From: Yersinia proxima
GTDB lineage: Bacteria; Pseudomonadota; Gammaproteobacteria; Enterobacterales; Enterobacteriaceae
Length of the DNA: 64,000 nt
Reading direction: 5' to 3'
Assembly: GCF_902170785.1 (NCBI RefSeq)
Contig: NZ_CABHYG010000004.1
Span: forward strand, 62,001-126,000
Positions within the stretch are counted from its first letter, which is position 1. Each line of letters starts with the position of its first letter. The notes under the pieces were generated by a model, which was not told the origin of the DNA, ran no database searches, and worked only from the letters and a program-made list of their open reading frames with translations. Shown in pieces: positions 9,846-47,619 of this stretch. The translations under genes were made by a program, and so were the position numbers.

Positions 9846-10060
9846 GGGGCGCGATTCTAATTACACCGAGGAATTAGCGCCACCCCTTTTTCTGTGCTTA
9901 ACTGTCATTCTGGCTATTTAAAGATAACGTTTGCGTGCATTTATTGTTTAATAAGACAACGATAGCCGCCAACACTGTGAATACAGTAAAAGAATCTTTA
10001 CGTAGACAGGTAAAGTCATCTTGCTATATCAGTGTCAGCAATGGAATAATGTGATTAATT

Positions 10061-10421
10061 CTGCGTTGATTCTCGTTAGACCAAGAGACTTGTGGAATAA
10101 TAAACTTTGCCTGATAACACAAAAACGCAGCAATGGCGTAAGACGTAATGTGAAATCAAGCAATTAGCGGGCTGCGGGTTGCAGCTTGGTCGGCAAGTGG
10201 GTCAGGCTCTGTTGTCTTATATTCAGAAGCTACCCTTTATATAAAAAGCGCTGTTTTTCAGAAAGAAACACAGGCTTACCGAAATAATGCGCCCCTATGC
10301 AGGCGACAACCGTGAGGTTGACGGCTTTGCTAGAAGACTCGGGGTCATCGGTTTACCCGACCATAGAGGTTATTTTGCCCGCAGTTCTAACGCCAATGTA
10401 AAAAAAACGAGTAAGTTAAAG
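10061..10421 (+). promoter_or_regulatory. rne 5' leader (rne5-type autoregulatory element)
   Basis: The 576-bp rluC-rne gap holds the rne promoter region and long leader. Short blocks next to the start codon match my recollection of the E. coli rne leader, for example GTGAGGTTGACG at about 10311, TTATTTTGCCCGCAGTT at about 10369 and ACGCCAATGTAAAAA at about 10389. In E. coli this roughly 361-nt leader folds into hairpins that RNase E itself cleaves, limiting its own mRNA. The 5' boundary given here assumes the E. coli length and is approximate. Confidence 0.75.
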
Positions 10422-34740: not shown

Positions 34741-34853
34741 GACAAACCCCGATAACTCGATCTTGCAAGGTGAAGGCAGGCAGAGGAGTAAAGCGTCCGC
34801 GCCAGGGATGGCGCGGCTCGAGCCCCCAAGGATGGGTTTACGGCGTCTTTACG
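34741..34853. repeat. Dispersed intergenic repeat, long copy (113 bp)
   Basis: This is an inverted relative of 42062-42150. Shared blocks are ACTCGATCTTGCAAGGTGAA, AGTAAAGCGTCCGCG and GGGTTTACGGCGTCTTTACG. This copy has about 24 extra bases in the middle that form hairpins (CGCGCCA-GGGA-TGGCGCG, then CTCGAG). It lies in the 262-bp gap after the POT gene. A CCCGCC/GGCGGG stem at 34713-34729 just before it may terminate that gene. I do not know a name for this repeat. Confidence 0.8.
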
Positions 34854-34943
34854 ATCTGCCTGTTTTCCCCGATACGGGCACTTTCTCATTAACTTCAACC
34901 CGCCCCTGTAGCGGTTATTTTCATTCAGGATACCACCTGAACC

Positions 34944-44100: not shown

Positions 44101-45066
44101 CTAACTTCTGCCCTGCTTAATTCTGTTAACTAACACAATACCCACACATACCAACACCAGTGCAATAGCATTTTTCCATTCCAAAATACTTTCATTCAGG
44201 AAAATAGCCGATAACACCGCGCCAGAAACCGGGATAAGGAAATTGAATGGGGCCACCATGCCGACCCGATTATATTTAAGCAGTAAACTCCAAAGTGCAA
44301 AAGCTGCCGACGATAACAGCACCAGATAGGCCAGTAGTAATAAAGCCTGCCAACCAAAATCACTCAAATGTCCGCCAAACAGATAACCGCCCAGCGTTAA
44401 AACCAGACCACCAATGGCTAACTGATAGCCGGTCATTACAGTGGTATCCATGGTTTGCGAAATACGTTTACCATAAATACTGGCGGCAGATAGGATGAAA
44501 GCGGCCAACACAACACAGCCCTCTCCCATCAGGGAAAAATTGAAGTCCATCAAGTCTGAGCCAAAATTGACCACCATGACACCGGCAAACCCCAAAGCAC
44601 ATCCAATGATTTTATTGAAAGTCAGTCGGTCATTTTTATAAATATAATGCGCCAACAGGACACTGAAAAATGTACCGGTCGCATTCATGATGGAGCCTTT
44701 AACACCAGTGGTGTATGCCAGGCCAATATAGAAAAAGACGTACTGCAATGTTGTCTGTGTAAGTCCTAAAATAGCAATTTGCTTATATTGGCCCTTCTTA
44801 AGGCGACCAATAGCCTTACCGCTGGCTACAGCAAAAAGTAGTAATACCAAACCTGCCAATAAAAAACGATACCCGGCAAACACCATTTTGCTCGGAATAT
44901 CATCAGCTGCAATATGGAACAGTGCATAGCCATTTTTTATGGCGGGATAGGCACTGCCCCAGAGCAGGCAACAAAACGTTGCGACGAGGAAAACAAATTT
45001 TTTATTAGTAAACAGCGGAGGACTCCGGTCCACGTCAACATCCTTTTTAGAGAAGAAATGAAACAT
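44101..45066 (-). CDS. EamA/DMT family transporter
   Basis: This 321-residue inner-membrane protein has ten predicted spans in two EamA repeats (LLWGSAYPAIKNGYALF near residue 35; AFILSAASIYGKRISQ and PVSGAVLSAIFLNESI in the second half). It probably exports a small metabolite, perhaps an amino acid or its derivative. The substrate is unknown. It is divergent from yenI and shares a 266-bp promoter region with it. Confidence 0.88.
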   Translation of the reverse strand: MFHFFSKKDVDVDRSPPLFTNKKFVFLVATFCCLLWGSAYPAIKNGYALFHIAADDIPSKMVFAGYRFLLAGLVLLLFAVASGKAIGRLKKGQYKQIAILGLTQTTLQYVFFYIGLAYTTGVKGSIMNATGTFFSVLLAHYIYKNDRLTFNKIIGCALGFAGVMVVNFGSDLMDFNFSLMGEGCVVLAAFILSAASIYGKRISQTMDTTVMTGYQLAIGGLVLTLGGYLFGGHLSDFGWQALLLLAYLVLLSSAAFALWSLLLKYNRVGMVAPFNFLIPVSGAVLSAIFLNESILEWKNAIALVLVCVGIVLVNRIKQGRS

Positions 45067-45332: not shown

Positions 45333-45983
45333 ATGTTAAAACTCTTTAACGTAAATTTTAATAATATGCCTGAAAGGAAGTTAGATGAGATCTTCTCACT
45401 TAGAAAAATAACATTTAAAGATCGACTGGACTGGAAAGTAACCTGCATTGATGGCAAAGAAAGCGACCAATATGATGATGAGAACACTAATTATATATTA
45501 GGAACAATAGACGATACTATTGTTTGCAGTGTTCGATTTATTGATATGAAATATCCAACCATGATTACAGGACCATTCGCACCTTACTTTTCTGATGTGA
45601 ACTTACCTATTGATGGTTTTATTGAATCCAGCCGATTCTTTGTTGAAAAAACATTAGCAAGAGATCTGGTAGGCAATAACAGCTCCCTCAGTACAATACT
45701 GTTTCTTGCTATGGTGAATTACGCCAGAGATCGTGGGCATAAAGGGATACTCACGGTAGTCAGCCGAGGAATGTTTATACTACTGAAACGCTCGGGTTGG
45801 AATATTACGGTATTGAACCAAGGTGAGTCAGAGAAAAATGAAGTTATTTATCTTTTACACCTGGGTATTGATAATAATAGTCAACAACAACTGATAAATA
45901 TAATATTAAAAATACATCAGGTTGAACCAACTACTCTCGAAACCTGGCCAATGATTGTCCCTGGTATTATTAAACAGGTTTAA
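45333..45983 (+). CDS. yenI: Acyl-homoserine-lactone synthase YenI
   Basis: YenI is a LuxI-family synthase that makes N-acyl-homoserine lactones from S-adenosylmethionine and acyl-ACP; the Y. enterocolitica enzyme mainly gives C6 and 3-oxo-C6 signals. The product has 216 residues from the ATG of MLKLFNVNF. The conserved Arg, Phe and Trp in [13 protein letters not shown], the acidic [10 protein letters not shown], the SVRF arginine and the [11 protein letters not shown] glutamate/arginine are all present. It is convergent with yenR and overlaps its 3' end by 14 bp. No strong ribosome site is visible, which leaves room for post-transcriptional control. Confidence 0.97.
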
Positions 45984-46707
45984 TTAATTTCAATTCTATG
46001 CCAAGCCTTATTGCATGCTTGGCATTTAAAACGCCCAACTTTCTAACAACATTGCCAATATGGAATTTAACTGTACTTCTTTTTATTCCCAATATAATTG
46101 AAATTTCGGCATAGGTTTTACCGACACTGGCCCAGTATAGAATTTCATTTTCCCTTGGCGAGAATATGTATCGTTGTTCTATCTGTATGTTCCGATTATC
46201 ATTCTTATCATTGTTACTCTGGTAAAGACCTAACATCTTTTCATGTGTGAAGATAAGTAACATTTGAATTTTTTCTTTATTTATTTCAATGCGTTCATCA
46301 AAAGAGATGCTGTCGTCGCTTACATTGGAAATATTTAACGTTGCCATATTATTACTATTATCATGGAGCACAAAAGTGTAACCATTAACAATATTATATT
46401 CTCTGGCCAACTTAAATACTGCAGAGTCCGTTGATTTTTTATTGATGACAGAGTTATCGTCCCAGGAAAAGGGGGCAACTTTGTCTTTCGCCGTCAAAAT
46501 AACAGGATCAATAAGATGATAACTGTTCTTTTTATATTTTTTTACCCACTCTAATGGGTAATTAGAAATGATTGTGGGATGCAGAGGGGTTTTCTTATTC
46601 ATGACTAAATAAGAATAACGAAGATCACCATAGGCCTTTATTCTGCGTTGAATATAGTTCTTTATGTCTTCATTAATACTTTCGTTATCAAAATAGTCAA
46701 TTATCAT
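45970..46707 (-). CDS. yenR: LuxR-family AHL receptor YenR
   Basis: YenR is an autoinducer-binding transcription factor. It belongs to the subclass that binds DNA without the signal and is released by AHL. The 245-residue protein has an N-terminal ligand domain (about 10-165; [20 protein letters not shown]) and a C-terminal LuxR helix-turn-helix ([22 protein letters not shown]...[17 protein letters not shown]). The tail-to-tail overlap with yenI is typical for this family. Two 20-bp dyads lie 128-173 bp upstream of its start codon, pointing away from it. Confidence 0.96.
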
Positions 46708-46834
46708 AATAGGCCAATTCTACTCTATGTATAATATAACAATACAATTTTATCGCATTGTTTTCAATAGAAAATGCGGTATAACATACCCTCACAAACA
46801 TTTCTTATATAAAATTGATGCCCGATAACAGAAA

Positions 46835-46854
46835 ACCTAGACCAAAGTATAGTT
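46835..46854. promoter_or_regulatory. lux-box-like dyad 1 (candidate YenR site)
   Basis: ACCTAGACCAAAGTATAGTT is an imperfect 20-bp dyad with outer arms AACTAT/ATAGTT-like. It is identical to the second dyad, 25 bp away, at 15 of 20 positions. The size and symmetry are as expected for LuxR-family operators. YenR as the ligand is inferred. Confidence 0.55.
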
Positions 46855-46859
46855 TAGAT

Positions 46860-46879
46860 AACTAGACCTAAGGCTAGCT
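46860..46879. promoter_or_regulatory. lux-box-like dyad 2 (candidate YenR site)
   Basis: AACTAGACCTAAGGCTAGCT is a 20-bp dyad with CTAG at both ends of the symmetric core (12 of 16 positions symmetric). It lies directly upstream of TATTATTATA (46879-46888), a likely -10. This places it in the -35 region of a rightward promoter, the usual position for activation by a LuxR-type protein. Confidence 0.6.
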
Positions 46880-47000
46880 ATTATTATACCCCTATGTTAA
46901 TTAAACTGTTTTTGCTTTATAGAATTCGTTTTAAATATACAAGAGCTAGTATCTTAGCGCAGTAGCGTCAAGAAAGTTAGTCTACAAAGAATATATTTTC

Positions 47001-47399
47001 GCCAACACCAGGGCACTTCTCACCGTTCATCAAGAACAATTCCACCCTGCCATCTGGATGGCTTTACATTCAGATGGCTATCAATCCCGTGCATAGTTCC
47101 ATCACCTTCGTATTACCCTATCTGATTCTTATGGCTTGCAAGTCACCTTGTTGGACAACTTAGGCAACTCTAACGATATGAACACAACTTGATTCTGGCC
47201 TTGCTGCTCTAATGCCAATTACCCCACTTCACCACTTATAAAGAACATGAATTTCAATAAAAGCATAAAAAATATTCTTTAAAGACATATAAACATTAAA
47301 CATATTAATGTAATTTTGATAAACTTGACTTAAGTCATGTCAGTAACCTAAATTAATCGTATGATAAATAAACGGTTATAATGTTTCCCTGGTGTTGGC
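47001..47399. repeat. 13-bp inverted repeats 399 bp apart
   Basis: GCCAACACCAGGG at 47001-47013 recurs as its exact reverse complement at 47387-47399. The right copy lies just before the strong terminator. The pair could be the remains of a small mobile element or a long-range stem in the proposed RNA. No transposase is recognisable between them. Confidence 0.6.
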
Positions 47400-47410
47400 C
47401 GAATTGGCAT

Positions 47411-47444
47411 CCCTTACCAAATGAGATTGGTAAGGGTTTTTTTT
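47411..47444 (+). terminator. Strong terminator without an annotated upstream gene
   Basis: A perfect 10-bp stem (CCCTTACCAA/TTGGTAAGGG) with a six-base loop runs into eight T's. The nearest upstream plus-strand gene is yenI, 1.4 kb away and separated by the opposing yenR. Confidence 0.93.
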
Positions 47445-47619
47445 GCCTGATATGTGGGCCTGGCCCTGGTTTTCCAGGATAACTGCTGCTCCACTCGCGG
47501 TGAGGTGAGGTAAAAGTACTTATCTAAAATAGGGTTATTATCTAACCCAACTAATATGTCAAAATGCTCCATTAACTGAGCAGAATTCATATTATCGGCC
47601 TAAAAAGGAATAAGGAATC

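Follow-up and report, generated by a model that had tools for sequence, protein, structure and literature searches.

The Quorum-Sensing Small RNA YenS of Yersinia Carries a Complement of the ArcZ Seed and Adjoins the Gene of a Predicted Short ArcZ-Like RNA

Enterobacterial sponge RNAs, such as SroC acting on GcvB, pair with the working part of another small RNA, and ArcZ is a broad post-transcriptional regulator. This breadth of ArcZ is partly described in the sections of PMC7883899 and PMC6749038 on which we draw. The closest described system to the locus analyzed here is the small RNA YenS (RF02374), whose lengths are given in reviews as 165/169 and 105 nt (PMC3493969, PMC4773443) and whose gene is activated by AHL-free YenR (PMC6027161). 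Its published target is yenI; it also has a yenI-independent effect on motility, for which the relevant sections of PMC3493969 and PMC4773443 give no mechanism. The sections on YenS in these three papers mention neither an ArcZ-seed complement nor a downstream ArcZ-like RNA. In Pantoea ananatis, pPAR237 and pPAR238 are Hfq-dependent small RNAs beside eanIR that are partly antisense to each other; the abundance of both is high at low cell density and drops strongly at high density (Shin et al. 2019, PMC6749038). The part of that paper concerned with these RNAs draws no link to the ArcZ seed. In Pantoea stewartii, AHL-free EsaR switches on PesaS, the divergent promoter of esaS (PMC13365800). This promoter resembles that of YenS in being divergent from a LuxR-type gene and driven by an AHL-free receptor. 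No description of a relation between YenS and ArcZ was found in the literature searched, which is not proof of its being unpublished; the ArcZ2 of PMC10168573 is, in the part of that paper dealing with it, an allele.

The window analyzed here is a stretch of 64,000 nucleotides from Yersinia proxima. At the locus of interest, the convergent genes yenI and yenR are followed by a non-coding stretch, a TetR-family gene, and a beta-glucuronidase gene. The features are as follows.

45333..45983, plus strand: yenI, AHL synthase (PF00765, 213.6 bits)
45970..46707, minus strand: yenR, LuxR-type AHL receptor (PF03472 and PF00196)
46835..46854, no strand assigned: first lux-box-like site, 15/20 identical to the second, within a conserved block
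46860..46879, no strand assigned: second lux-box-like site, 7/10 symmetric pairs, 15/20 identical to the first
46914..47083, plus strand: small RNA YenS (RF02374, 122.4 bits, cut-off 80, full model 1-169)
47001..47013, plus strand: antiseed GCCAACACCAGGG in YenS, exactly complementary to 47387-47399 and to the ArcZ seed
47049..47078, plus strand: 3' hairpin of YenS, no T run after it
47325..47338, no strand assigned: TTGACTTAAGTCAT dyad, FNR/CRP-like, at about -41 of the predicted start
47360..47365, plus strand: -10 element TATGAT of the ArcZ-like RNA
47372..47444, plus strand: ArcZ-like small RNA of about 73 nt, with the predicted start set by the -10 element and the end by the terminator (conservation; model R1)
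47384..47399, plus strand: ArcZ seed TTTCCCTGGTGTTGGC, 16 nt
47398..47408, plus strand: small GCC..GGC hairpin
47411..47444, plus strand: intrinsic terminator of the ArcZ-like RNA

Elsewhere in the window, Rfam places Ysr224 (RF02770) at 34790-34896 on the minus strand (105.5 bits) and the RNase E 5' UTR element rne5 at 10057-10396 on the plus strand (316.4 bits). Several copies of Ysr224 occur in Y. ruckeri, according to the portion of PMC12112432 that treats it.

A preliminary description of this DNA, made from its letters, had named yenI and yenR, and the Pfam matches uphold both identities. It had raised but not settled the question of whether an RNA beside yenR is YenS; the RF02374 match settles that it is, and the sequence, the length, and the place beside yenR are those of the known RNA. 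YenS is divergent from yenR and lies 3' of the conserved lux-box-like sites. The same description had placed a terminator about 520 bp beyond these sites with no plus-strand gene between. The terminator is indeed there, as a 10-pair stem followed by eight T, but the interval before it contains YenS and a second small RNA gene. As for the two 20-mers 25 bp apart that were described as dyads, their 15/20 identity is confirmed and the symmetry of both is not, 7/10 pairs being reached by 46860-46879 only. The offset pair at 46833/46858 is likewise 15/20 identical, and when the 912-nt region was shuffled 100 times by mononucleotide, 10 of the shuffles held some pair (offset 20-39) with at least 15/20 identity. 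Mean column identity across 17 Yersinia loci is 90% at 46830-46890 versus 48% for the spacer at 47084-47310, and such column conservation is better evidence for lux-box-like sites than the dyad identity. Finally, the sequence TATTATTATA, which had been called -10-like, is present at 46879-46888. It lies 35 to 26 nt 5' of the Rfam-defined start of YenS, so that it would occupy a -35 rather than a -10 position if that 5' end holds.

RF02374 was found in 18 of the 25 Yersinia-genus genomes, in 17 of them over its cut-off, and in none of the 35 genomes from outside the genus. The conservation and pairing sets comprise 17 of the 18 YenS loci and leave out L018, where the YenS region is largely replaced (32.5 bits). 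In that genome (G002; loci L018 and L057), yenR and yenI are present as fragments only, and the ArcZ-like RNA and the uidR-like gene are intact. At L009 (G009), the yenR homologue lies in two separate pieces and is apparently broken. In YenS of Y. frederiksenii (L003), a second, partial antiseed follows soon after the first; by eye, it is degenerate in L008, and L016 has a deletion there.

The terminator at 47411-47444 ends a second, predicted RNA and not YenS. The unit to which it belongs consists, in order, of the TTGACTTAAGTCAT dyad, the -10 element, the ArcZ seed, the GCC..GGC hairpin, and the terminator. The 17 loci have a mean column identity of 96% over 47372-47444, versus 48% for the spacer that separates it from YenS. 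The ArcZ family model RF00081 matches 47323-47422 at 19.7 bits, below its cut-off of 66, with the seed exact; the unlinked ArcZ of this genome, at 57.3 bits, is also under that cut-off. No Rfam family exceeded its cut-off for the ArcZ-like RNA in the window and 20 loci scanned. ArcZ and the ArcZ-like RNA have the 16-nt seed and the 3' terminator in common, and ArcZ is without the GCAGTATTCGCGCACC-type segment that follows the seed in the ArcZ-like RNA. The locations also differ. The ArcZ-like gene sits between yenR/YenS and the TetR-family gene, whereas the ArcZ locus is next to arcB, and the unlinked ArcZ copy (L076) lies between reading frames that appear by eye to be ElbB- and ArcB-like. 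The TTGACTTAAGTCAT dyad resembles FNR/CRP sites. Its spacing to the -10 element is 35 nt in 21 of 21 members, presumably the spacing of a class II activator; FNR control of this promoter would be a guess. Covariation in the small hairpin amounts to one both-sided change in 87 cells, and 125 of 500 shuffles did as well, which is too little for support.

The exact seed 16-mer occurs in all 25 genus genomes, with at least two copies in 24 of them, and a reversed-seed control gave zero matches across the same 25 genomes. Searching these genomes with RF00081 yields a second, weak match beside YenS in 17 of the 18 YenS-bearing genomes, and 17 of the 18 YenS loci, all but that of Y. similis (L017), have a seed downstream of YenS in the same orientation. 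The ArcZ-like RNA also persists in five Yersinia genomes that lack both YenS and an intact yenR of the window's type. Besides G002, these are G004, G017, G022, and G023, which have either a 47-49% yenR homologue elsewhere or none. In these last four, the unit comes after a gene that, judged by eye, corresponds to the EamA-type transporter encoded at window positions 44101-45066, and in G004, G017, and G023 the next gene resembles, by eye, the TPR gene beside nrfF in L002, where NrfF is over its cut-off and the NrfG model far below its own. This persistence without YenS or yenR indicates that the ArcZ-like unit is an independent gene and not the tail of YenS.

Yersinia also holds further ArcZ-like copies. 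Those at L047 1522-1597, L060 1990-2067, L062 1924-1998, and L063 (seed near 2096, minus strand) have a GGGAACG(T/A)TCCC dyad upstream, which is a different promoter type, and no yenR homologue in the fetched stretch. Those at L061 1963-2037, L065 2000-2067, and L067 2028-2094 come from three genomes in which YenS was not matched, and each immediately precedes a 48-49% yenR homologue that is convergent with a yenI homologue. At L072 (G252), an exact seed 16-mer without a terminator occurs near 2557 on the minus strand, just outside two transport-like reading frames, and the strand opposite that seed would bear an ArcZ antiseed.

Given the exact complementarity of antiseed and seed, we predicted pairing in 20-nt windows with accessibility taken into account. 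In the window, the predicted duplexes are -18.5 kcal/mol for YenS with the ArcZ-like RNA and -17.7 kcal/mol for YenS with ArcZ. Under the same conditions, 25 shuffled YenS sequences average -7.7 kcal/mol (sd 2.3, lowest -13.4) against the ArcZ-like RNA and -7.8 kcal/mol (sd 1.8, lowest -11.9) against ArcZ. When YenS and ArcZ are taken from each genome, all 17 genomes tested have their best duplex at the antiseed (-9.8 to -19.5 kcal/mol), with a mean of -16.5 versus -7.1 kcal/mol for shuffled YenS; the weakest are G018 (-9.8) and G013 (-13.4). The complement of the ArcZ seed in YenS exceeds chance in these shuffle comparisons, as looked for in a sponge RNA. This candidate sponge differs from those of the SroC type in being under a quorum-sensing receptor. 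The windowed prediction replaced whole-molecule duplex folding, which gave long gapped structures and in which the best shuffles reached energies no higher than those observed (YenS:ArcZ -62.6 versus a lowest shuffle of -62.8; YenS:ArcZ-like RNA -41.4 versus -47.0). Across the species the complement is 11 to 15 nt long, with G-U pairs or one mismatch in some. The variants GCCAATACC and GCCAACGCC give G-U pairs, G009 and G018 have a mismatch, and G013 is truncated. Wobble-compatible changes are weak evidence, since most transitions in the antiseed keep a pair. Across the whole genome, the exact 13-mer that pairs with the antiseed is found at ArcZ, at the ArcZ-like gene, on the strand opposite YenS, and at one further place, opposite a reading frame of 517 codons.

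Pairing with yenI, the published target, was predicted in the same way. The best YenS:yenI prediction in the window is weak (-6.4 to -6.7 kcal/mol), and in seven other loci (seven of the eight given, L111 being left out) the values range from -6.9 to -13.4 kcal/mol with no shared place. The ArcZ-like RNA has a predicted site upstream of yenI at -11.4 kcal/mol (ArcZ, -9.4), which is stronger than the YenS site. No strong seed site was found in the flhD leaders, which leaves a link to the motility effect of YenS unsupported.

We then compared relatives through their YenR homologues. The search gave 78 loci, of which L077-L143 (67) were used and L144-L154 (11 weak or partial matches) left out. 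In named genomes, complements of the seed lie upstream of luxR-type genes, and a seed-complement score of at least 34 is reached in 30 of the 67 loci versus 0 of 1340 shuffles. Reading both strands, we found that in several genera the complement is the reverse strand of an ArcZ-like gene oriented in the luxR sense; such loci occur in Serratia, Mixta, Edwardsiella, Arsenophonus, Dickeya, and a second Y. massiliensis locus. The idea that the antiseed upstream of many luxR genes marks a cross-genus sponge was dropped for this reason, since in many of these loci the antiseed lies opposite an ArcZ-like gene that has a terminator itself, and a sponge reading is kept for YenS and, by way of the published work, for pPAR238. 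To describe the ArcZ-like RNAs themselves, model R1 was built from an alignment (A1) of 29 sequences that omits near-duplicates and Pectobacterium copies without a clear terminator. Its automatic structure has only 4 pairs, so R1 acts mainly as a sequence model; it scores 47371-47444 at 74.5 bits, that sequence having itself been part of the model. R1 gives 81 matches at E <= 0.001, in 63 of 392 family genomes and 29 of 154 genera. Measured against the genes with an AHL-binding domain in the same 63 genomes, 60 of the 81 matches lie within 2 kb of an AHL-receptor gene where about 0.17 would be expected by chance. R1 may lean to such loci, 12 of its 29 sequences having entered through the YenR search, but it contains no flanking genes. 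The chance figure used 137 receptor genes; a recount gave 135 and leaves it unaffected. Of these 60, 38 are upstream in the sense orientation (136-275 bp from the domain), 15 are divergent (347-718 bp), and 7 are placed otherwise; the other 21 matches show no such linkage or sit on a different contig. At divergent-class loci from outside Yersinia, TTGACA-like and -10-like motifs are seen by eye closely 5' of the seed, and none of 11 loci has an antiseed between luxR and the ArcZ-like RNA.

In Pantoea, all eight primers for pPAR237 and pPAR238 map to L073/L172 with 0-1 mismatch, and they make pPAR237 the seed strand and pPAR238 the antiseed strand beside the LuxR-type gene eanR. The Pantoea pair is partly antisense, whereas YenS and the ArcZ-like RNA are in tandem on one strand.

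The two RNA genes are thus present, conserved, complementary, and linked in Yersinia, and we think it probable that they encode two separate plus-strand small RNAs and that YenS and ArcZ-family RNAs pair with and titrate each other. AHL-free YenR would activate YenS, as the literature has it, and the ArcZ-like RNA would be made from its own promoter with the FNR/CRP-like site at about -41. The YenS antiseed is predicted to pair with both the unlinked ArcZ and the adjacent ArcZ-like RNA. Most likely, YenS would dominate at low AHL and sequester ArcZ-family RNAs at low cell density; as AHL accumulates, YenS would fall and ArcZ activity would be released. The same logic may operate in Pantoea as a cis-antisense pair beside a luxR-type gene, where both strands are expressed at low density (PMC6749038, in its section on the two RNAs). 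Several observations speak against this reading. The ArcZ-like element is under the ArcZ cut-off, G018 and G009 have mismatches and G013 a truncation, the antiseed ranks only 9th in conservation among 158 13-nt windows of YenS, whole-molecule energies do not separate YenS from the best shuffles, and 0 of 11 divergent-class loci outside Yersinia have an antiseed between luxR and the ArcZ-like RNA. In addition, the papers name yenI as the target of YenS, and the ArcZ-like RNA has the stronger predicted site there.

A serious rival, although we judge it unlikely, is that regulation runs in the opposite direction, with the ArcZ-like RNA (and ArcZ) removing YenS, which would be the target and not the sponge. 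An active promoter of the ArcZ-like RNA, perhaps without oxygen, would then lead to titration of YenS, freeing of yenI, and more AHL. The adjacency of the two genes in 17 of 18 YenS loci and the promoter dyad, spaced as for a class II activator in all 21 members, accord with this proposal, the pairing predictions suit either direction, and the reported 105-nt form of YenS would have its 3' end 5 nt beyond the antiseed, which is what cleavage after pairing might leave. Against it, Y. similis keeps the antiseed where the single exact seed copy is ArcZ itself, the ArcZ-like RNA is retained where YenS is gone and so has other work, and both Pantoea RNAs are abundant at the same low density.

It is rather improbable that YenS acts on yenI alone, that its antiseed is left over from an ArcZ-like gene once present on the opposite strand, and that the downstream RNA is an unrelated neighbor. 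In relatives the antiseed often faces an opposite-strand ArcZ-like gene, several genera carrying such genes on the luxR-sense strand upstream of luxR, so the Yersinia antiseed could be a slowly decaying relic; some Yersinia antiseeds are truncated or lack a pair, and other windows of YenS are better conserved. Yet no terminator was seen opposite YenS in the window sequence, 17 of 17 predicted duplexes beat the shuffle mean, and the predicted YenS:yenI pairing is weak in the window and differently placed in the seven other loci. Although the missing T run after the YenS 3' hairpin makes read-through conceivable, one long transcript from the YenS promoter to 47444, in which antiseed and seed fold within one molecule and which would be the single unit of about 520 nt from dyads to terminator presumed earlier, is highly improbable given the reported lengths of YenS, the 48% conservation of the spacer, and the fit of the terminator to a separate ArcZ-like RNA that has a conserved promoter of its own and is retained where YenS is absent.

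Returning to the preferred reading of mutual titration, YenS is most simply the Yersinia form of an RNA that is made under an AHL-free receptor and carries an ArcZ antiseed, and we infer that YenS and the Pantoea antiseed RNA descended from a common RNA. More tentatively, and with doubt somewhat outweighing confidence, we propose that a module found across the Enterobacterales connects AHL receptors of the YenR/EsaR type to the ArcZ regulon. Short RNAs mimicking processed ArcZ would be encoded beside the receptor gene, and a receptor-activated RNA with the exact antiseed (pPAR238 in Pantoea, YenS in Yersinia) would titrate ArcZ-family RNAs when cell density is low; in Yersinia, this antisense RNA would have become a free-standing trans sponge. 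A search of a plasmid collection gave no match.

YenS is already known, and the short ArcZ-like RNA behind it is unregistered. The latter defines a family of short ArcZ-like RNAs that is strongly linked to quorum-sensing genes and that Rfam did not match at cut-off in the window and the 20 loci. The conserved complement of the ArcZ seed provides a concrete candidate for a second partner of YenS besides yenI, and it offers a common reading for the antisense small RNA pair beside eanR in Pantoea. A quorum-controlled antagonist of ArcZ would couple cell density to the broad regulation exerted by ArcZ. From sequence comparison, these results suggest that cell-density signaling and ArcZ control may be wired together by RNA pairing.
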